From positions 1 through 41,940 of the forward strand of contig PLYZ01000084.1 in the NCBI GenBank assembly GCA_003151935.1: a stretch of 41,940 nt of DNA, read 5' to 3'. Shown piece by piece: positions 9,513 to 23,218 of this stretch. Below the pieces are notes generated by a model. The model was given only the letters and a program-made list of their open reading frames with translations. It searched no databases and was not told the origin of the DNA. This DNA is from Candidatus Dormiibacterota bacterium (GTDB lineage Bacteria > Chloroflexota > Dormibacteria > Dormibacterales > Dormibacteraceae). The translations under genes were made by a program, and so were the position numbers. Position 1 is the first letter of the stretch; each line of letters opens with the position of its first letter.

Positions 9513-11153
9513 GATGATGTTGCCGAACGGTAGTAAAGACGGTCCAGATTTCAGAGAGAAGGCGGCTCGAGCCTCCGGATCTGTCCTCGCTCCCTGGTTA
9601 GAACTGAACGGCGCCATGGGCGAGCTGGCGGACCACACTGGCCCAGAATCGACCTCTGGCCGACGACGAGGGCCCTGCCCGCCTGGGCCTCGGGCCGGCG
9701 GCGGACCAGCTGCTTCAGGTTCATGGCGGACGCGGTGAGCAGCGCTTGGATCTGCATCTTGCCGCGACCACGGAATTGAGCTTTTCCGAAACCGTGCTGC
9801 TCCTTCGCATGCGCGAAGACCAGTTCGCTAACAGCCTTCCGGTGACGAAGCAGCTGTTGCGACCGGCGCTTGTGGAGATGCCGTTTCATCGCCTCGTACT
9901 GCTCTATCTCCCAGCGCCGCGTGATGGAGCGATCTCCTCGGCCGGGGGCGCATTGAGCTTTCAGCGGACAGTCCTGGCAGGTGCCCCGCTTGGGCCTGTA
10001 CACCACGCGACGCTTCTCGAACGCCAGCGTCTTGTGACCCAGCTCTTTGCCCTCGGGACAGATATAGAGGTCGCGCTCCGGGACGTAGATGAACCGACTG
10101 GGATTCAGCCCGCCGGAGCGATTGAGGACCGGCCGCATCGCGATGGTTGGTTGGACACCCGCGTTCAAGCACGCGTTCCAGGTCGCGTCGCTCGCATATC
10201 CGGCATCGGCGACGAGTTCACGAGGCGAACGGCCCAGCTTGAGACGGTGTCTGGTGAGCATGTCAACCACCGCCTGAGCGTCTCCCTCTGTAGCGGGTCG
10301 TACTTCTACCGCCGTGATGATATGAGCCTTTCCGCCGTCCACCACCATGTGCGTCTTGTGGGCGAGGAGCCGGGGCTGACCCAGCTTGGTAGCCACCTCG
10401 GCGTCAGGGTCCGTCGAACTCACCAGCAGGCTGTTCACGACGGCACGCCGCTCTGGTTTGTCCTTTCTCGGGCGACCCTGGCCTTGCCGCGGTCGAGGAG
10501 CGGCATCTTCCCGATCCGATTCGGGGTTGGCTTCCCAGATCTGGGCGACGAACTCTTTCGGCCGGGTGAGCGTCCGCTGCTCGACGAGCGCTCTCGAGCG
10601 GAGAGACTTCGGCGATGCGTTCGCCTTGCTCAGGGTCGAGTCAAGGAACACGACATCGCCTTCGACCAATCCACGTGCCTCACACAGCTGGACAATACGA
10701 GTGAAGAAGCGCTCATAGACCGCTCGGCCGAAGCGTCGCCGCGCCTTGCTGAGGACGCTATGGTCAGGCACGGGCTCGTCGAGTTCGTATCCGAGGAACC
10801 ACCTCCAAGCCAGGTTCAAGCCTGCCTCCTCGCAGACCCGACGCTCGCTGCGGATGCCGTACAGGTAACCGAGCAGCGAGAGCTTGAAGATGACGACCGG
10901 ATCCACCGACGGTTGTCCGGTGTGGCTGTACGAGCCCTTGACCAGGCTTCGGATGAACCCGAAATCGACTGCCGAATCAAGCTGGCGGACAAGGTGATTG
11001 CTGGGTACCGCACTGTCCAGCGAAAAGCTGACGTACAGCTTCGGCTCGACGGCCTTGAGACCCATCATGGGCGACACCTCCGAATGCGACGTGAGCTGGA
11101 TCGACGAGGTCAAGCTGATTGTCGCCGAGAAAACCGAGTTCGGCAACATCATC
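9513..11153 (-). mobile_element. Complete IS1182-family insertion sequence, 1641 bp
   Basis: The element is bounded by perfect 16-bp terminal inverted repeats: GATGATGTTGCCGAAC at 9513-9528 and its complement at 11138-11153. It is flanked by AAAC on both sides. It carries a single full-length transposase gene on the minus strand with a strong ribosome binding site and no visible frameshift, so it looks intact and possibly active. Size, single ORF and protein motifs fit IS1182. It splits the short region between a GAF/LuxR-like gene and an OmpR-type gene that were formerly about 110 bases apart and divergent. Confidence 0.9.
9551..11068 (-). CDS. IS1182-family transposase
   Basis: This DDE transposase of 505 residues is preceded by GGAGGT (plus-strand 11076-11081) seven bases before the ATG at 11068, which decides this start over longer options. 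The N-terminal DUF772-like region contains SVDPVVIFKLSLLGYLYGI and the FLGYELDEPVPDHSVLSKAR stretch. Likely catalytic acids are Asp in VVFLDSTLSKANAS, Asp in ELVADAGYAS and Glu in VSELVFAHAKEQHGF, which aligns with the E in VEPVFG of relatives. A cysteine cluster (CPEGKEL, CQDCPLKAQC) is typical for the family. The C-terminal tail after MNLKQLVRRRPEAQ is Arg/Pro-rich and probably dispensable. Confidence 0.92.
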   Translation of the reverse strand: MMGLKAVEPKLYVSFSLDSAVPSNHLVRQLDSAVDFGFIRSLVKGSYSHTGQPSVDPVVIFKLSLLGYLYGIRSERRVCEEAGLNLAWRWFLGYELDEPVPDHSVLSKARRRFGRAVYERFFTRIVQLCEARGLVEGDVVFLDSTLSKANASPKSLRSRALVEQRTLTRPKEFVAQIWEANPESDREDAAPRPRQGQGRPRKDKPERRAVVNSLLVSSTDPDAEVATKLGQPRLLAHKTHMVVDGGKAHIITAVEVRPATEGDAQAVVDMLTRHRLKLGRSPRELVADAGYASDATWNACLNAGVQPTIAMRPVLNRSGGLNPSRFIYVPERDLYICPEGKELGHKTLAFEKRRVVYRPKRGTCQDCPLKAQCAPGRGDRSITRRWEIEQYEAMKRHLHKRRSQQLLRHRKAVSELVFAHAKEQHGFGKAQFRGRGKMQIQALLTASAMNLKQLVRRRPEAQAGRALVVGQRSILGQCGPPARPWRRSVLTRERGQIRRLEPPSL

Positions 11154-11193
11154 AAACCTTGAACCTGTTAGCTTGCGGTTGGGGATTGGTGGC

Positions 11194-14359: not shown

Positions 14360-15706
14360 TCATCCACCGAACGGCGGGAGCGTGACCGTGAAGACTGCGC
14401 CGCGCCGATTGCCCTCGAACAAGAGTTGTCCCTGATGCTCACGGACGATCCCGAAGGACATGAACAGGCCAAGCCCCGTGCCGCCTTCCTTGGTCGTGAA
14501 GTGGGGCTCGAACAGATGGTGCCTCTGGTCGTCAGGTATGCCGGGCCCATCGTCGGTGACACTGAAGTAAGGCCAGCCATTCCCCCTCCGGCCGGCCCTC
14601 AGCACGACATGGCCGTTCGCCGGGGCTGCATCGATGGCGTTGTTGACAAGATTCGTGATCACCTCTCGTAGGAGCAGAGGGTCGGCGTGAACGCTCACCT
14701 CATCGGGCGACTCGCGCAGCGCAAGCTGCACCTCTTTGGTGCGGGCCCTTGGCCGGGCCATGCCGAGAGCTCGGGTGATGAGCTCGTTGAGGTCGATGGG
14801 TTCCGCGGCATACGCCACGCGAGGTGTAGCACCCTGCGAAAGGCTTTGCAACACGGTCACCGCGTCAGTGGCCGCTGCGGTTGCCGTCTCTATGCTCTCG
14901 CGGTCGACAGGGTCGAGCCGGCGAGGATCGACCTCCTTCAAATAGCCAACCGCATTCGCCATGTGATTGCGCAAGTTGTGGACCACACCCTCCACCGCAC
15001 GGCTGTGGAATAGGTGGCGGTCGGCGTCCGAGAGCTCGGACTCGAGGACTCTCCGCACGCGTCGACCGGCGATCGTGTCAGTCAACGCGAGCGCAAGGAC
15101 GAAAACGATAGTTGCGAGGAAATAGCCAAGAAGCGACCCATCCAAAACGTAGCTGACAAGCAGTGATGCCAATCCAAAGTACGCGAACGCAACAAAGAAC
15201 GAGCGAGTGAAGGTCTTGCGCGTCACCCGCCGGACTGAGTCGCCCTGACGAATTCGGAACGCCAATAGGAGCAGAACCAAGTTGGCTCCGATGCAGACAA
15301 GGATGACCAGGATTCGCGGAGCAAGAGCAAGTTGGTTGACTGTACGAAACTCAGTCGCAGCGATCGACCCCAAGTAGCTGATTGTCCCCGTGAACAGCCC
15401 GTTGCTCAGGCTTAGATAAACACCGCGACCAACCAGAGGCAAGGAAGATGCAAGGCCAACGATGGTCGCGTCCAATGGATTTAGAAGTAGGGCAGCTGCC
15501 ATTGTTGGGATGCCGATAAGGCTGAGCCGGCCATGCTCGATTCGTACGTGCGGAATATTCAGCATCACCGCGCCGACGCAGAGATAGATGACCACGAGCG
15601 TGTTGTCGGGGTGCGCGATGTCCTGATGGCGCACCAACACGTTGAGAATCGTGCCGGCCGTCGCCAGGATCGCCAGGTAGACGTAAGACGGCATGAATCG
15701 CTGCAT
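14360..15706 (-). CDS. Membrane histidine kinase with multi-span N-terminal sensor
   Basis: This kinase of 448 residues has about seven or eight transmembrane helices in residues 5-210, a short linker, a DHp helix with His243 in VVHNLRNHMANAVGYLKEV and a C-terminal HATPase_c domain (NLVNNAIDAAP, VTDDGPGIP, FEPHFTTKEGGTGLGL). There is no periplasmic sensor, so the signal is probably sensed in or at the membrane. It is divergent from the NarL-type regulator at 15766 with about 60 bases between, which marks them as a likely pair. Base composition is less GC-rich than in the housekeeping genes (about 47% in the sample 15121-15180). Its last 96 bases recur in decayed form twice upstream. Confidence 0.9.
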   Translation of the reverse strand: MQRFMPSYVYLAILATAGTILNVLVRHQDIAHPDNTLVVIYLCVGAVMLNIPHVRIEHGRLSLIGIPTMAAALLLNPLDATIVGLASSLPLVGRGVYLSLSNGLFTGTISYLGSIAATEFRTVNQLALAPRILVILVCIGANLVLLLLAFRIRQGDSVRRVTRKTFTRSFFVAFAYFGLASLLVSYVLDGSLLGYFLATIVFVLALALTDTIAGRRVRRVLESELSDADRHLFHSRAVEGVVHNLRNHMANAVGYLKEVDPRRLDPVDRESIETATAAATDAVTVLQSLSQGATPRVAYAAEPIDLNELITRALGMARPRARTKEVQLALRESPDEVSVHADPLLLREVITNLVNNAIDAAPANGHVVLRAGRRGNGWPYFSVTDDGPGIPDDQRHHLFEPHFTTKEGGTGLGLFMSFGIVREHQGQLLFEGNRRGAVFTVTLPPFGG

Positions 15707-15765: not shown

Positions 15766-16407
15766 GTGCTAGTGGTAGACGACAGCGTGCTCCCGCGCGC
15801 TGCGGCGCGAGCCATGCTCAGCTCTGCCTCGAATCTCAGACTCGTGGGAGAAGCCTCCTCCGGCGCTGAAGCGCTAGGCGTAATTGACGCGCTCAAGCCG
15901 GAGTTGATCCTCATGGACGTACACATGCCCGAACTGGATGGTCCGGCTACGGCGAAAGCAGTCCTCACTCGACATCCCGAAATCAAGGTCGTCGCCTGGA
16001 CTGTATCGGAATCGAGCGACGATCTTTTGCGGATGATGGCAGTCGGGTGCTCGGGTTATGTGCTGAAGGACGCCGGACCGGGGGAGCTCCAGCGCGCCCT
16101 GCTCTCGGCGCTGCGTAGCGAGAGCCCTGTCCCGCGCAAGATGATCCCCGACGTTCTGCGTCGGGTGGCCGAGTCGACCCCCGTGTCAAAGAGCAACCTG
16201 GCTCCGCTCACATCCAGGGAGATGCAAATTCTCCGAGGCATCGCAAAGGGACATACGACAAAGCGAATGGCCGCTGACCTGGGTCTTGCAGCTCCCTCGA
16301 TCGAGACGCACCTGCACAACATCTTCCGGAAGCTGAGCGCGACCAACCGCGGGGAGGCGGTAAGTACTGCTTTGAAGGTTGGACTCCTGACCCTAGCCGA
16401 CTTGTAG
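15766..16407 (+). CDS. NarL/FixJ-family response regulator
   Basis: Residues 1-115 form a receiver domain: VLVVDD acidic pair, phosphoacceptor Asp51 in LILMDVHMPELDG, and Lys in GYVLKDAGPGEL. Residues about 143-213 form a LuxR-type helix-turn-helix (LTSREMQILRGIAKGHTTKRMAADLGLAAPSIETHLHNI). The frame is open upstream only to a TAA at 15718, and GTG 15766 is the best start although it has no strong ribosome binding site. It is divergent from the membrane kinase and is its probable partner. Confidence 0.88.
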   Translation: MLVVDDSVLPRAAARAMLSSASNLRLVGEASSGAEALGVIDALKPELILMDVHMPELDGPATAKAVLTRHPEIKVVAWTVSESSDDLLRMMAVGCSGYVLKDAGPGELQRALLSALRSESPVPRKMIPDVLRRVAESTPVSKSNLAPLTSREMQILRGIAKGHTTKRMAADLGLAAPSIETHLHNIFRKLSATNRGEAVSTALKVGLLTLADL

Positions 16408-16484
16408 CCTCTCGCCGGACGGCGGTCCGAGCTCATGGTTATCAATGAGTCCATCTATGGGATTTGACGATATCCATCACCTGT

Positions 16485-16572: not shown

Positions 16573-16644
16573 ATGGTGCGCATGCTCAGGCGACTGGTTC
16601 GTGGCGGCGGTAGGCAGCGAGCTGTCGGGTACTGGATTTTCTAG
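16573..16644 (+). CDS. Small ORF of 23 codons with strong ribosome binding site
   Basis: The ORF runs from ATG at 16573 to TAG at 16642. AGGAGG (16559-16564) stands eight bases before the ATG, one of the best ribosome binding sites in the window. The peptide starts MVRMLRRLVRGGGRQ and ends AVGYWIF: strongly basic, then aromatic and hydrophobic. A terminator-like hairpin follows 14 bases later. No codon run suggests an attenuation leader. It may be a small protein, a signalling or membrane-active peptide, or a leader peptide for the HD-GYP gene. No family is recognised. Confidence 0.45.
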   Translation: MVRMLRRLVRGGGRQRAVGYWIF

Positions 16645-16657
16645 GCTAGATTGACTA

Positions 16658-16685
16658 GGGTCCGCTGTGTGCGGGCCCTTTCGTT
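16658..16685 (+). terminator. Intrinsic terminator after the small ORF
   Basis: GGGTCCGC (16658-16665) pairs with GCGGGCCC (16671-16678), with one G-U pair and a TGTGT loop, followed by TTTCGTT. It lies between the small ORF and the HD-GYP gene, whose own start is about 45 bases downstream. Confidence 0.65.
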
Positions 16686-16728
16686 AAAGGGCGCCAGGGA
16701 CTAAGCCCCGGTCTAGAATTCCTGCGTC

Positions 16729-19311
16729 TTGACTCCATATCGCTCGCTCCCGTGGTCGGCCCAGGTCTACATTGCCGGCGTAATCGCGATCGGCGTTGGC
16801 ATGGTTGTGTTCGGGTGGGTTGTGCATCCGGTGCCGCCTGAAAAGATTGGCACTGTTCTCTACCTGGCCATTGGCACTCAGATCGCAGCATTGCGCCCGA
16901 TCCCGTGGAGAAGTGGCCACCATCAGGTACATGATCCGCTACTCGTAGCCACGGGTTTACTTGTTCCAGGCGGTGGAGTCGGGCTGGTTGCGTGGCTCGC
17001 GGTGTTTGATGGCAGGGTACCTGGTCGCACGATCACGTGGTGGGCGTTTCTATTCAATCGCGCGATGCTGGCCATTGCGAACGTTGTCCCGTCCCTCGCG
17101 GTGGCATCAATTGGGGTAGACGGCCATGACTGGTGGGCGATTCCAGCGCGCACGGTGATTTATGCCATAGCTTCCGTCGGACTCAACTACATCTTGACGG
17201 CGTTGGGCTGGTCATATATCGGACGCGCATCAGTGTTGACCACCCTGTTCGAGAACGTCAGCCTGTCAACCTTGCTTGCCACCGTTTCATTGACTTTTTC
17301 TGGCGGAATCATTTTCCTGCTTCTGAAGCGGCCAGAAGGCTACATCATGGTCCCGGCGTTGTTTGGTTTCGTGCTGGCCATCCGCGGCTACCTCGCCGAC
17401 GCGCAGCGACAGACGTTACTCAAGGACCAGACACTCGCCCTAGCGGCCCAAGCGCTCGACGCCCGAGACCGATACACCGAGTCACACTCGATTCGTGTTG
17501 CTGAAATGGCGGGCCGACTTGGCGAGCACCTTGAGCTTGGCGATCCGCAATGTGAGCTCATTCGCACTGCTGGCGCTCTGCATGACCTCGGGAAGATCGG
17601 GGTACGCGACGATATCCTGAACAAACCCGGCCCGCTAAACGAGGAGGAATGGGAGATCATGCGGCGCCATCCCGATATCGGGGCGGACATGATCGCGAAG
17701 CATTCAGCTCTCGCCGAGGTCGCTCCAATAGTGCGGCATCATCACGAGCGTTGGGATGGATCGGGTTATCCCGCAGGCCTCAAGGGAGACGTCATTCCCT
17801 TCGGCGCCCGGATCTTGGCGGTCGCCGATTCCTTCGACACCATCACTGGCGCACGTCTTTATAGGCCTTCGCCCATGACGCCGATAGAAGGAGTGGAGGA
17901 CATCAGTCGCCGGGCGGACCGCTGGTATGACCCGAATGTGGTGGACGCGCTCAGAGAGCTGCATGGGCTCAAGCCTTTGGAAGTACTGAACCGCCCTGAG
18001 GTCCCGCGGCGGGTCACGACAATTCGAGTCCTCCGATCGAACCCCGCCTTCAGCAGCTTGATCACTGCCATTGGGATCTCTGCGCTCGGAGACCCGCTGA
18101 CCCAGGTAGCGACGCTCGTATCAATCTATATCGCCACAAGTGACGCTCGGTTTGTCGCCCTTGGATTCATTATCCAAGCACTCGGCACGATCGTCATGAG
18201 TAGTGTGTTTGGCGGCGTCGCTGACAGGCTACCCCGACGCGGATTGGTCGTCGGACTCGAACTCGCTCGCGCCGCAATGTTGCTTGCAACGCCATTCCTC
18301 ATCGGAATGGACCAGGTAGCCCTCCGAAAACACTTCTGGCTGATCTACCCAGTTCTGTTGTTTCTCGCGTGCGTCAACGCGCTGGTACAGCCGGCTCGTC
18401 AGGCGGCCATACCCGGCTTGGTACCAGCGGGACAGATTGGAAAAGCCAATGCCATGGTGACGGCTACAACGATGTTGGCCGGCGCGATTGGGTTCGGCTT
18501 GGCAGGTGCAATCTTGGCGCTCACGCCAAAGTCCACCAACATGCTCTTCGTTGCGGACGCGGTGACATTCATGTTGGGCGCGGCGATCGTCTTCAGCATC
18601 CCGTCCCTTGGCGGGGGCGCCCGGGCCGCGTCTGTCTCGGGCGCGCTGCGGCGTTCCTGGTCAGTTGTCGCCCTTCGGCCCCATCTCGTCGTGGGTACTC
18701 TGGCCGCGTTTTTGATCCCCCTCAGCTTTCCTGCGGCGCTCGCACTCGCGTATCAGTTTGGAGGCGGAACGTACGGAGGACAGGTCTACTCAACTCTGGA
18801 GCTAGTACTGTCGGTGGGGATCTTGGTGGGGTCGATGGCGGTCTCGGTGTTCAACTCAATTGGCTCAATGCGCACTGTCGGGGCAGGCCTCTTTGTGACC
18901 GGGATCTTTTCGATTGTCATCGCGATGAGTGCTTCGTTGGGTCTGAGCCCCCAGCTGTTTTGGATTTGGATCGGCATCGCTCTGTTCATCGCCTCGATCG
19001 GCAACCCTATCTACGCGGTCGCCAATCAGACTGCCGTTCTTGAGGCTGCCGACAACTCGAATCGGGGCACTGTCATGGCTACGCGATTTGGCTTGGTTCA
19101 GACCGCCAGCATCGTGGGGTTTGCCGCAGGCGGGCTGATCACACGACAGTTCGGCCCTCTGGCCGCTTACGGGGTTCTTGGCGTTGGCTTGGTACTGCTG
19201 GCCATGTATGCGATCGCCGCAGGCCGCAGCACTACAAATCCCCTTCACGGGGCTGCCTATGAGGAGGCCACTCTCCGAACGGCGGGAACTCAGTCGCAAG
19301 TAAAGACTTAA
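16729..19311 (+). CDS. Fusion protein: membrane sensor domain, HD-GYP phosphodiesterase and MFS transporter
   Basis: This protein of 860 residues has three parts. Residues 10-222 hold about seven transmembrane helices of a sensor type. Residues about 235-420 are a full HD-GYP domain: His253, the His285-Asp286 pair with Lys289 (HDLGKIG), His314, the HHH at 337-339, DGSGYP at 343-348 and Asp367. All metal and signature residues of cyclic-di-GMP phosphodiesterases are kept. Residues about 438-840 form a 12-span MFS transporter with the loop motif GGVADRLPRR (495-504), like DHA3-type drug exporters. The only possible start is TTG 16729, after an in-frame TAG at 16714; TAGAAT at 16714-16719 would give a nearly leaderless message. 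The reading frame is unbroken across both junctions. The codon use is less GC-rich than in flanking housekeeping genes. Confidence 0.9.
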   Translation: MTPYRSLPWSAQVYIAGVIAIGVGMVVFGWVVHPVPPEKIGTVLYLAIGTQIAALRPIPWRSGHHQVHDPLLVATGLLVPGGGVGLVAWLAVFDGRVPGRTITWWAFLFNRAMLAIANVVPSLAVASIGVDGHDWWAIPARTVIYAIASVGLNYILTALGWSYIGRASVLTTLFENVSLSTLLATVSLTFSGGIIFLLLKRPEGYIMVPALFGFVLAIRGYLADAQRQTLLKDQTLALAAQALDARDRYTESHSIRVAEMAGRLGEHLELGDPQCELIRTAGALHDLGKIGVRDDILNKPGPLNEEEWEIMRRHPDIGADMIAKHSALAEVAPIVRHHHERWDGSGYPAGLKGDVIPFGARILAVADSFDTITGARLYRPSPMTPIEGVEDISRRADRWYDPNVVDALRELHGLKPLEVLNRPEVPRRVTTIRVLRSNPAFSSLITAIGISALGDPLTQVATLVSIYIATSDARFVALGFIIQALGTIVMSSVFGGVADRLPRRGLVVGLELARAAMLLATPFLIGMDQVALRKHFWLIYPVLLFLACVNALVQPARQAAIPGLVPAGQIGKANAMVTATTMLAGAIGFGLAGAILALTPKSTNMLFVADAVTFMLGAAIVFSIPSLGGGARAASVSGALRRSWSVVALRPHLVVGTLAAFLIPLSFPAALALAYQFGGGTYGGQVYSTLELVLSVGILVGSMAVSVFNSIGSMRTVGAGLFVTGIFSIVIAMSASLGLSPQLFWIWIGIALFIASIGNPIYAVANQTAVLEAADNSNRGTVMATRFGLVQTASIVGFAAGGLITRQFGPLAAYGVLGVGLVLLAMYAIAAGRSTTNPLHGAAYEEATLRTAGTQSQVKT

Positions 19312-19353: not shown

Positions 19354-20496
19354 TTGCGTAACGTGCGTTCGAGCCCGCATGGGCCCCCACACGAGATCGA
19401 ACCTGAGGCCCCGGCACCCTTAGCCGCCGCGGTGGTTTCGGCTTTGGCGCTCGATCCCAAGAGGCGGCGCCGATACCTCCAGATCGCCTTTGGCATCGTC
19501 GCTCTGCTGGTCGCGTTCGACGTGCTCTACCTGATGAGGGATTTCCTGGGTGCCTTCGTGCTGGGGGCGGCGATCGCCTTTCTCATCCAGCCCGCCGTTA
19601 CTCGCCTGGTTGCAGTCGGCGTTCCGCGCGTGGTGGCCATCGCGGTCATCTTCGTCGTGATCATCGCCCTCATGGCCGGCCTGGTGCTGCTGATCGTCCC
19701 CATGGGAGCACGAGAGGTGAGCCAGCTGCAGCGCCAGGTGCCGAGCCTCGCGGCGTCGGCTCAGAACACCATCAACAGCGTGCAAGGGTCTCCGGTCCAG
19801 ATCCTCGGCATCACCATCGATCTGAGAGCCGCGACGGACACGATCAACTCGCACCTCAAGGACTTCCTGCTCGGTCAATTTGGAAACGCGGTCACCATCG
19901 GCCTCACCGCCCTCACCACGCTCCTGCAGCTCGTGCTCATGTTCATCGTCGCCTTCCTCCTCGCGCTCGACGCTGCCGCCGCCAGGAAAGTGCTTCGTCG
20001 GCTGGTGCCCAATGACTACCGAACTGATTTCGATCAGATCTGGCGCAAAGTGCGGAAGATGCTGTACGCGTACGTTCGCGGCCAGCTGATCATCGCCGCG
20101 AGTATCGGCGTGCTGTCCGGTATCGCGTGCGCATTTCTAGGACTACCGGACGCGGTCGCGCTGGGCTTGATTGCCGGGATCACCGCATTGATCCCCTACC
20201 TTGGCCCGTTCATCGGGGCGGTCCCCGCCATCCTTGTCGGTTTGGCGGCGGGCCCTGTCAAAGCCCTCCTGGTCGCAGTCATCTACTTCCTCATCTCCAA
20301 CGTCATTCTCAACTTCGTCTATCCGAAGGTGATGGGTGACGCCGTCCGCCTGTCGCCGATCCTCGTGATCATGGCGTTCATCGCCGGCTACAGCTGGGCC
20401 GGGATCCTCGGCATGTTCGTCGCCGTCCCGATCGCGGCCACGCTTCGCATCCTCTTCGACCACATCTATCCACGCCTTTACGAGAAGCTCGCTTGA
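19354..20496 (+). CDS. AI-2E family transporter (YhhT/TqsA/PerM type)
   Basis: This is a polytopic membrane protein of 380 residues with the family pattern: three N-terminal helices, a soluble segment rich in Gln and Ser (REVSQLQRQVPSLAASAQNTI), and a C-terminal set with GLIAGITALIPYLGPFIGAVPA and the end MFVAVPIAATLRILFDH. Members are exporters for quite different solutes, and some export autoinducer-2; the substrate here is unknown. TTG 19354 is chosen because CATACT at 19341-19346 ends seven bases upstream, fitting a leaderless message; GTG 19363 is possible. The stop overlaps the next start, so this gene leads an operon with the phosphoesterase and glycosyltransferase. Confidence 0.85.
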   Translation: MRNVRSSPHGPPHEIEPEAPAPLAAAVVSALALDPKRRRRYLQIAFGIVALLVAFDVLYLMRDFLGAFVLGAAIAFLIQPAVTRLVAVGVPRVVAIAVIFVVIIALMAGLVLLIVPMGAREVSQLQRQVPSLAASAQNTINSVQGSPVQILGITIDLRAATDTINSHLKDFLLGQFGNAVTIGLTALTTLLQLVLMFIVAFLLALDAAAARKVLRRLVPNDYRTDFDQIWRKVRKMLYAYVRGQLIIAASIGVLSGIACAFLGLPDAVALGLIAGITALIPYLGPFIGAVPAILVGLAAGPVKALLVAVIYFLISNVILNFVYPKVMGDAVRLSPILVIMAFIAGYSWAGILGMFVAVPIAATLRILFDHIYPRLYEKLA

Positions 20497-21206
20497 AGGT
20501 CGCGATTTTCTCGGACATCCACGCCAACTGGCACGCGCTGGACGCGGTCCTCCGCGACTGTCCACAGGTGGACGAGACCTTGTGCCTCGGCGACGTTGTG
20601 GGCTACGGCGGCGATCCGAAACGGTGCATCGATGAGGTTGTGCATCGCGGCTGGTTGACGCTCGTGGGCAATCACGATCGCGCGTGCACCGACCCCGAGA
20701 TACTCGAGTGGTTCAATGAAGACGCGGCAACTGTGGTCCGCTGGACCGTCGACGTGATCGGTGATGAGCGACTCGGCTGGCTGCGTGGATTGCCCGACAG
20801 CCACGTCGAGCACGAAGTGCTGATGGTCCACGCAAGTCCTCGCGATCACATCTACGAGTACGTGCTGGATACAGCGGTCGCACACGCGAACCTGGAGCTG
20901 ATCAACGGCGGCGTGTGCTTCCACGGACACACTCATGTGCCAGGGATCTTCGGCATGTCGGACGGAGCGGTCACGCATGACTACCGTGTCGACACCTTTC
21001 GCCTCAAGGGCCCGGCGTTGGTAAACCCCGGCAGCGTCGGGCAACCGAGAGACGGCAGTCCAACCGCGAGCTACGGCGTCTGGGACACGGAGTTGGCGAC
21101 GTTCGAGTTCCGGCGTGTCCGCTACGACATCAAGGGCGCGCAGCGGGCGATTCGGAAGTCGAAGCTTCCGGAGCGTTTCGCGCTTCGACTCGAAACAGGG
21201 CGATGA
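20493..21206 (+). CDS. Calcineurin-like metallophosphoesterase (YfcE-like)
   Basis: This phosphoesterase of 237 residues has all five motifs: Asp8-x-His10 (FSDIHAN), Asp34 (LGDVVGYGG), Asn60-His61 (VGNHD), His113 (MVHASP) and GHTH at 145-148. These bind a dinuclear metal centre that hydrolyses phosphomono- or diesters. The TTG start overlaps the AI-2E gene stop, and the stop overlaps the ATG of the glycosyltransferase (ATGA). The position suggests action on a phosphorylated sugar, lipid or nucleotide of that pathway, but the substrate is not known. Confidence 0.88.
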   Translation: MKVAIFSDIHANWHALDAVLRDCPQVDETLCLGDVVGYGGDPKRCIDEVVHRGWLTLVGNHDRACTDPEILEWFNEDAATVVRWTVDVIGDERLGWLRGLPDSHVEHEVLMVHASPRDHIYEYVLDTAVAHANLELINGGVCFHGHTHVPGIFGMSDGAVTHDYRVDTFRLKGPALVNPGSVGQPRDGSPTASYGVWDTELATFEFRRVRYDIKGAQRAIRKSKLPERFALRLETGR

Positions 21207-23218
21207 CCCTGCGCCTCACCGAGAGGCGGCGAAGGCTCGCCTACGCGGCGGCGACCGGGGTGGGCGCCGGCTCGCTGGTGGTCTGGGCCTACTTCTGGGT
21301 CAACCTGGTCAGAGGCAACCTTCAAGGACCTGACTTCGTGTCGTTTTACTCGGCGGCCAGGCTGTACGTCCTCAAGGGAGGATCCGCCGTTTACGACCTC
21401 GCTCTCCAGAAGCAGTTCGAGCTGCAGGTCATCCCGCAGCCCCCCGACCGGTTCGTCGTGCTCCCGTACTTCCACCCTCCCTACTACACGTTGCTCATCG
21501 CGCCGCTGGCCGCGCTGAGCTACCGCCAGGCCTACTACGCCATGACCGCGTTCAACGTGCTGCTGGCGGCGGCGTTGATCGTCCTGCTGGTGCGGAACAG
21601 CTTGAGCATCCACGGCCGAGGCGCGATCGTGGCCGCGGCGATGATCGCCGGTTTCTTTCCGCTGTTCGTGACAGTGCTGCAGGGTCAGTCAGACCTCGTC
21701 GTCCTCGTGCCACTGGCGGCGGCCTACACGGCGTGGGCCAAGGGCCGCCACGGCTGGGCCGGCGTCTTCAGCGCCCTGGCCCTCGCCAAGCCTCAGCTTC
21801 TCCTCCTCATACCCGTGCTGTTCGTCGCGAGACGGGCGTGGCGTGCGCTGGCCGGCTTTGTCGGAGTGGTGGCAGCCCTCGGCCTGGTCTCGGCGGTGGG
21901 TTTCGGTCTGAGCGCCGTTGTTAATTATTTGGGCCTGGTCGGCGCGTGGGCGATCGGTGGCAAGCTGCCCACGAGCGGACAGCTCGTCTATACCGACACC
22001 GCCGCTTACTCGCTTCGCAACATCCTCGAGGCGATCCCCGGCGCCGGCAAGTACGTCGCCCTCATCGTCCTTGTCCTGCTGCTGGTCCTGGCGGCCCTCT
22101 CCCTGAGCTGGCGCCCCGACAAGCCACGGCTGGATTTCGCCGTTGCGGTGGCCGCGTCGCTGGTCTTGAGCCCACACCAGAACGTGCACGACCTCGCGCT
22201 CATGGTCATCCCCGGCTTTGCCCTCGCCGACCTCGCTCTGGCCGGGCAGCTGCGGTCGCCGCGTGCGGCCGCGGTCGTGCTGGCAATCGCGTATATCGCG
22301 ATCAACATGACGCTCGCCATAAACCTGTGGTCGGCAGCCCTGGGAGCGCTGCTGGTAGCCGCCTACCTGACTTTCGAGCGGATGTCGGTCAAGCCCGATC
22401 CCATTCCGCTTGGTGAGCTGACGTGGAGCGGGCCGCGCCCCCGGCGCGTGATCGTCCTGCCCGCCTACAAGGCGGCGAAGACTCTCAACGAGGTGGTCGG
22501 CGACATCCCGCAGGGTCATGCAGACCGGATCCTTCTTGTCGACGATGCCAGCGCAGACGCCACCGTCAGCGTCGCCACCGCGCTCAGCCTCGATGTGATC
22601 CGCCATCAGCGCAACCTTGGCTATGGCGGGAATCAGAAGACCTGCTACAGCCAGGCGCTGAAGATGGGCGCCGACGTCGTGGTCATGCTGCACCCGGATG
22701 GCCAGTACGACCCGGCCATCATCCCGAATCTATGTCGAGTCATCGAGAACGGCGAGGCCGATATCGTGCTCGGCTCCAGGTGGCTCGGCATTGATCCCGC
22801 CAAGGCGGGAATGCCGTGGTGGAAGCGCATCGGCAACCGCTTCCTGACCTCGGCCGAGAACAGAGTCCTTGGGCTGAACCTCTCCGAGTACCACACCGGT
22901 TACCGCGCGTATTCGCGACGCTTCCTCGAGGCGATTCCATTTCTCGAGAACAGCAACGACTTCGTGTTCGACACGCAGGTGCTCATCCAGGCCGCGGCCT
23001 TCAGGTTCAGGATCGGCGAGGTCCCCGCGATCGGGAAGTACCACGAAGATGCAAGCTCGATCAGCTTTTCGACCTCGACCGTCTACGGCCTCAAGACGCT
23101 GGCGGCGCTCGCCAGGTACGTGAGCCACCGCGCCGGCTTCACGTGTCGCTGGCTGACGCCGGCTTCAGATGCCGGCAAACAGGCGCTTGCGGTAGGCCAG
23201 GTAGCCCACCACAGCTAG
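21203..23218 (+). CDS. GT87-GT2 fusion: polyprenol-dependent glycosyltransferase joined to a dolichol-P-mannose-synthase-like domain
   Basis: This protein has 671 residues. Residues 1-400 are a GT-C enzyme of the GT87/DUF2029 type with eight or more membrane spans and the near-N-terminal motif GPDFVSFYSAARLYVLKG, plus YFHPPYYTLLIAP. Residues about 410-640 are a cytoplasmic GT2 domain: VIVLPAYKAAKTLNEVV, LLVDDASADAT, the acidic metal motif in LHPDGQYDPAII and the acceptor region YHTGYRAYSRRFLEAIPF. DPM1-like GT2 domains charge polyprenyl phosphate with a sugar, and GT87 enzymes use such lipid-linked sugars on the outer face, so one chain may make and use the same donor. The C-terminus overlaps the convergent DUF2127 gene by 54 bases. 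Confidence 0.85.
   Translation: MTLRLTERRRRLAYAAATGVGAGSLVVWAYFWVNLVRGNLQGPDFVSFYSAARLYVLKGGSAVYDLALQKQFELQVIPQPPDRFVVLPYFHPPYYTLLIAPLAALSYRQAYYAMTAFNVLLAAALIVLLVRNSLSIHGRGAIVAAAMIAGFFPLFVTVLQGQSDLVVLVPLAAAYTAWAKGRHGWAGVFSALALAKPQLLLLIPVLFVARRAWRALAGFVGVVAALGLVSAVGFGLSAVVNYLGLVGAWAIGGKLPTSGQLVYTDTAAYSLRNILEAIPGAGKYVALIVLVLLLVLAALSLSWRPDKPRLDFAVAVAASLVLSPHQNVHDLALMVIPGFALADLALAGQLRSPRAAAVVLAIAYIAINMTLAINLWSAALGALLVAAYLTFERMSVKPDPIPLGELTWSGPRPRRVIVLPAYKAAKTLNEVVGDIPQGHADRILLVDDASADATVSVATALSLDVIRHQRNLGYGGNQKTCYSQALKMGADVVVMLHPDGQYDPAIIPNLCRVIENGEADIVLGSRWLGIDPAKAGMPWWKRIGNRFLTSAENRVLGLNLSEYHTGYRAYSRRFLEAIPFLENSNDFVFDTQVLIQAAAFRFRIGEVPAIGKYHEDASSISFSTSTVYGLKTLAALARYVSHRAGFTCRWLTPASDAGKQALAVGQVAHHS

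Follow-up and report, generated by a model that had tools for sequence, protein, structure and literature searches.

A conserved fusion of a predicted membrane sensor, an HD-GYP domain and an MFS transporter domain in the class Dormibacteria

Background

Proteins of c-di-GMP signalling are known for their sensor and receiver inputs. The c-di-GMP reviews that we checked do not mention the MFS, and we found no report in the literature of a c-di-GMP protein fused to a transporter. The stand-alone sensor-HD-GYP proteins of Chloroflexota, which are approximately 450-480 amino acids in length, end after the HD-GYP domain. In the histidine kinase CbrA, an SSS symporter domain transports histidine and modulates the kinetics of the kinase (PMC7918813). 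Were a conserved single chain to combine the two, c-di-GMP turnover would be linked to transport directly and in a testable way.

The stretch of DNA analyzed here, termed the window, comprises 41,940 nucleotides from Candidatus Dormiibacterota. A sequence-only reading of it had proposed that one frame, open for 860 codons, encodes a membrane sensor, a complete HD-GYP phosphodiesterase and an MFS transporter, and had noted that no HD-GYP-MFS protein was described. We likewise found none in the literature, with subscription papers, preprints and domain-architecture databases lying outside the coverage.

Results and discussion

The proposed frame is borne out, with a TTG start (Table 1), and a domain search places both named domains above their curated Pfam cut-offs: HD_5 matches residues 240-404 (E 1.6e-38, 132.6 bits against a cut-off of 27.2) and MFS_1 matches residues 461-734 (E 1.2e-11, 44.6 bits against 33.4). 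Each of these models also matches 19/19 family members tested. An assembly join or frameshift could have created an apparent fusion, and the sequence-only reading had pointed to residues 420-440 as the place to look for one. Full-length single frames were found in 33 genomes, on many contigs and in many assemblies, and relatives encode the fusion as one gene rather than always as two. Because a single unbroken frame spans the junction in independent assemblies, we regard chance and such an artefact as ruled out, the probability of an artefact being negligible. In the single split case (G012) the frame break lies within the HD-GYP region, away from the junction.

Table 1. Positions in the window of the fusion gene, its domains and the surrounding features
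Feature	Position	Strand	Remarks
Histidine kinase, divergent from the fusion gene	14360..15706	-	Shares a homologous N-terminal membrane domain with the fusion
LuxR/NarL-type response regulator	15766..16407	+	Conserved neighbour
Imperfect palindrome TCATGGTTATCAATGA, candidate regulator-binding site	16433..16448	+	Family consensus TCATGGATTTCCATGA; 3' of the response regulator gene
23-codon microprotein gene MVRMLRRLVRGGGRQRAVGYWIF	16573..16644	+	GGAGG Shine-Dalgarno; between the response regulator and fusion genes
9-bp hairpin, weak terminator/attenuator candidate	16657..16679	+	z = -1.8; between the microprotein and fusion genes
TAGAAT, -10-like hexamer, candidate promoter	16714..16719	+	9 nt before TTG; conserved in 10 orthologous upstream regions
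Fusion gene: membrane sensor, HD-GYP phosphodiesterase and MFS transporter (predicted)	16729..19311	+	860 codons, TTG start; single-frame homologues
N-terminal membrane domain, residues 1-225	16729..17403	+	Approximately 7 helices and a short beta pair; no Pfam match
HD-GYP domain, residues 235-411	17431..17961	+	Metal-binding and GYP residues complete
Linker from HD-GYP to first MFS helix, residues 412-438	17962..18042	+	Identical in nearest relative
12-helix MFS domain, residues 439-832	18043..19224	+	D455 in helix 1; motif A G495..D499..R503
AI-2E family permease	19354..20496	+	Conserved neighbour in f1 and f3
Calcineurin-like metallophosphoesterase	20493..21206	+	Conserved neighbour in f1 and f3

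Distribution and genome context

The survey of other genomes showed that the same architecture recurs within the class Dormibacteria, a group of uncultured soil bacteria: 43 of 110 genomes contain a complete or fragmentary fusion, which is full length in 33 (counted from the search tables). Full-length single-frame homologues in the 41 related genomes searched belong to two families: f1, with 60-85% identity to the fusion protein and approximately 50% in its deepest members, and f3, from the same class, with approximately 33%. Among named records, the closest is a Candidatus Dormiibacterota MAG (PNAG01000021.1, 85%). Genomes G010, G019 and G024 have two fusion genes each. No fusion was seen in G001, G275 and G282, whose contigs end at the permease gene, and the absence of a fusion from G009 is doubtful, as a homologous N-terminus there runs off the contig end.

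In a search of 400 Chloroflexota genomes, the matches listed outside the class consisted of the sensor and HD-GYP part only, with no full fusion among them. A full-fusion profile at E <= 1e-75, which detects the same domain order only and for which two or three candidates were scored per genome, found none in 346 Actinomycetota genomes and none in the two phyla that include Desulfosporosinus and Massilia, with 299 genomes each; the only match across these 944 genomes of three other phyla was a protein of 471 aa that aligned to model positions 44-423. The search of the class served as the positive control for this profile.

The gene order regulator, fusion, permease, phosphoesterase is common to f1 and f3, with the regulator upstream in most. 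In most of the f1 genomes examined, a conserved 671-aa protein combining GT87 and GT2 glycosyltransferase domains (21203-23218, + strand) is encoded next to the locus. On the other side, a DDE transposase (DUF772 / DDE_Tnp_1_6; 9551-11155, - strand) lies between a GAF-domain gene and two paired response regulator genes. This genome has 8 GGDEF matches and fusion-bearing genomes mostly have 7-17; the fusion-bearing genome G014, which is 59% complete, has 4. At the f3 loci L090-L094, the fusion is preceded, at a distance of a few genes, by a GGDEF gene of approximately 497 aa that stands beside a histidine kinase and a response regulator.

The N-terminal membrane domain and the adjoining kinase

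The membrane sensor of the sequence-only reading corresponds to a multi-helix domain (residues 1-225) that, as alignment with stand-alone relatives shows, is widespread ahead of HD-GYP domains in Chloroflexota. In those proteins the N-terminal domain is homologous and its junction to the HD-GYP domain is the same. In the 19 family members checked, Pfam gave no convincing match to the domain. Modelled from a broader alignment, it reached an AlphaFold2 pLDDT of 93, and none of the solved structures compared with it matched significantly (best E 0.28). Among its weak top PDB matches, several are S-components of ECF transporters (5edl, 9kym, 4huq), which we mention as a lead only.

The divergent histidine kinase begins with a homologous membrane domain, which likewise has no Pfam name. 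Profile comparison of the kinase with the fusion's N-terminal domain gave an E of 3.3e-6, and with the broader N-terminal profile a probability of 97% (E 7.5e-11 over 196 columns); the MFS halves, included as controls in the same comparison, gave E values above 0.1. Because their membrane domains are homologous, the kinase and the phosphodiesterase may read the same or a related signal.

The HD-GYP domain

The claim that all HD-GYP metal and signature residues are present holds in alignments to solved HD-GYP proteins: every signature segment aligns with PmGH (4mcw), PA4781 (4r8z) and V-cGAP3 (5z7c), and PmGH and PA4781 are among the PDB neighbours of this domain in the AlphaFold2 model. Within the fusion family, the residues H253, H285-D286, K289, H314, H338-H339 and D367 show little or no variation. 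The HHExxDGxGYP motif, with G344xG346Y347P348, is found in the fusion protein; L015 and L016, both deep f1 members, have N in place of D343, as does the f3 row L019. By our own reading of the alignment, Y249 occupies the position of a PmGH glutamate that we take to belong to the three-metal site of that enzyme; a two-metal site is therefore expected in the fusion.

We infer that the domain is active on c-di-GMP. Its best sequence match among solved structures is 5z7c, 3'3'-cGAMP phosphodiesterase 3 (E 9.9e-38), which would fit a domain acting on another cyclic dinucleotide such as 3'3'-cGAMP. However, 4mcw, described as a c-di-GMP phosphodiesterase, follows closely (E 1.6e-31), and similarity does not settle the substrate; we consider a substrate other than c-di-GMP most unlikely.

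The MFS domain and its separate copies

AlphaFold2 places the MFS helices at residues 439-831 in a full 12-helix MFS fold, in agreement with the full MFS domain of the sequence-only reading. The motif GGVADRLPRR named there is present, and D455, G495, D499, R503, R514 and N574 are invariant in 39 MFS rows, three separately encoded copies included. The best PDB neighbours of the modelled MFS part include MdfA, SPNS2, SotB and NorA; a sequence comparison of this part with the PDB gave no match. Alignment with the NCBIfam model TIGR00900, of the MFS_3-type H+ antiporters (Mef-like efflux proteins), extends over the whole model (1-364 of 364, E 1.2e-27), but the score of 97.3 bits lies well under the curated cut-off of 319.6, and no match above the cut-off occurred among 41 related genomes. 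A profile of the fusion's MFS scores 259-606 bits with the fused and the three separate copies, whereas other stand-alone MFS proteins of the class score at most 120 bits. We found no pointer to a substrate of the MFS in the locus neighbourhood; the domain presumably exports something.

In a tree of the sensor and HD-GYP parts, which branch among the stand-alone Chloroflexota proteins, all 31 fused rows lie on one side of a branch with support 99/96. The MFS tree unites the fused rows and three separate MFS genes (from G015, G018 and G006) in one clade (100/99), where the separate genes are sister to the f1 fusions. Taken alone, the MFS tree makes two independent fusions as parsimonious as one fusion and one loss, but a separate fusion in each family is countered by the single clade of the sensor and HD-GYP tree. 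Because of that clade, the MFS clade and the shared synteny, the simplest history would be that the fusion arose once, before the split of f1 and f3, with one later loss of the sensor-enzyme half. Solely the MFS half occurs alone inside the fusion clade, so relatives encoded as two separate genes were rejected.

The separate copies show 37-41% identity and are located away from the fusion locus; a changed function is possible for them. Two of their genomes, G006 and G018 (g5), have zero HD-GYP and two weak GGDEF matches each, and the third, G015 (g14), has four HD-GYP matches and one weak GGDEF match. The association of a separate MFS gene with genomes poor in c-di-GMP proteins, seen in two or three lineages, is suggestive but is not proof. 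Since a separate gene has been kept inside the fusion clade, in genomes without HD-GYP, the MFS half would be useful without the enzyme part. Likewise, because three fusion-less genomes carry this half separately, the MFS part looks like a working transporter to which the sensor-phosphodiesterase is a regulatory add-on.

The linker and selection on the fusion

The whole-chain AlphaFold2 model (mean pLDDT 76) contains the seven-helix N-terminal domain, the HD-GYP domain, the linker and the 12 MFS helices. Confidence falls under pLDDT 50 at residues 426-429 of the linker, and the domain contacts in the model are not dependable. The linker is short and its sequence differs between f1 and f3; all 27 of its 27 residues are identical between this genome and a sister genus member. 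Against the sister genome, dN/dS is 0.135 for the sensor, 0.042 for HD-GYP, the slowest-evolving part, and 0.104 for the MFS. All domains are under purifying selection.

These observations bear on whether the two halves influence one another. Both might be active independently, with the fusion only fixing their ratio and placing the phosphodiesterase beside the transporter, and a short linker that varies between families and is modelled with low confidence is consistent with this. We think it unlikely, however, given that the one-gene fusion has been kept down to approximately 33% identity and in the duplicated copies of three genomes, and that the linker is under purifying selection in the close pair.

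The upstream region

A predicted gene for a 23-residue microprotein, previously unnoticed, accompanies the fusion gene in most of f1. The family consensus is MVRMFRRLLRGGSRQRVVGxWxx; length is equal in 20 distinct orthologues, R3, R7, R10, G19 and W21 are invariant, and the invariant arginines and glycine use several synonymous codons. A class-wide search gave 27 strong matches (E below 1e-9), of which 26 immediately precede a complete or fragmentary fusion gene; the remaining one (G443) is near a contig end, with the adjoining gene out of view. The three genomes with two fusion genes have two microprotein genes each, tracking them. The search gave no match in f3, nor in g6 and g11, which are deep members of f1. 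In G009, a similar short frame, MTFLRRLFRTNKPQIFGGWQY, read from the sequence, precedes the fusion-like N-terminus. The G009 locus (L172, 6517-7720) is rearranged, this frame and N-terminus being divergent from the response regulator and running off the contig end. The fusion gene also leads to a microprotein family, linked to it, that had been overlooked.

The start of the fusion gene is a conserved TTG without a Shine-Dalgarno sequence. The TAGAAT hexamer is one of two TANNNT elements found 10-16 nt before a start codon when 29 genes of the window were checked, and the fusion mRNA is likely leaderless, starting with TTG. In other phyla, leaderless genes are known to carry -10 elements adjoining their start codons, at least as outlined in one report (PMC12340547). 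A terminator and promoter scan of the upstream region found nothing. The palindrome behind the response regulator gene is conserved in the alignment of orthologous upstream regions and is possibly the binding site of that regulator. A conserved ATTTGACGAT comes after it.

A model for the fusion protein

Our tentative preference, which falls somewhat short of an even chance, is for a c-di-GMP phosphodiesterase under sensor control that is fused to a functional exporter of the drug/metabolite:H+ antiporter type, with information passing from sensor to phosphodiesterase to transporter. The N-terminal membrane domain would detect a signal and set HD-GYP activity, the role presumed for it in many stand-alone sensor-HD-GYP proteins of Chloroflexota. 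The HD-GYP domain, predicted to sit in the cytosol between the two membrane domains, would signal to the MFS, by way of the short conserved linker, whether c-di-GMP is bound or hydrolysed. Export would thereby be tied to local c-di-GMP turnover, and the allosteric coupling would run from enzyme to transporter.

Conversely, the MFS might serve mainly as a second sensor, its conformation shifting on substrate binding or transport and changing phosphodiesterase activity. Transporter domains are tied to signalling elsewhere, as is the SSS domain of CbrA (PMC7918813), and the HD-GYP domain is the most constrained of the fusion's domains. However, the input position is already held by an N-terminal sensor of the sort usual in HD-GYP proteins, and the MFS, unlike a pure sensor, keeps its transport motifs and occurs without the enzyme where HD-GYP is missing. 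We therefore regard a sensory MFS as rather improbable. The genomic evidence leans towards transport gated by c-di-GMP turnover over the transporter as sensor, because the N-terminal sensor fills the usual input position and the MFS occurs separately in genomes without HD-GYP.

The fusion suggests that transport and c-di-GMP signalling are physically coupled and, if so, this would be an unrecorded way of coupling c-di-GMP and membrane transport. A fuller proposal, in which export is set allosterically by the phosphodiesterase of the same chain or the reverse, with input from a sensor like that of the adjoining histidine kinase and with a dedicated 23-residue microprotein, is conceivable but doubtful. 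The relatives provide built-in controls, with sensor-enzyme only, transporter only and the fusion all represented.

Comparison with known systems

The stand-alone sensor-HD-GYP proteins of Chloroflexota lack the C-terminal transporter of the fusion. CbrA-type kinases, composed of an SLC5 transporter with STAC, PAS and histidine kinase domains, are like the fusion in that one chain combines a signalling enzyme with a complete secondary transporter. CbrA, however, has its SSS domain at the N-terminus and a kinase as output (PMC7918813), whereas the fusion has its MFS at the C-terminus and a predicted c-di-GMP phosphodiesterase. None of the SSS (SLC5), STAC, PAS and histidine kinase domains was found in the fusion protein by Pfam. 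By its predicted layout, the fusion resembles the CbrA-type transporter-linked signalling proteins and is not a member of that group. Each of its halves belongs to a familiar kind, and other forms of transporter-linked signalling have been described; the HD-GYP-MFS combination itself appears to be new.
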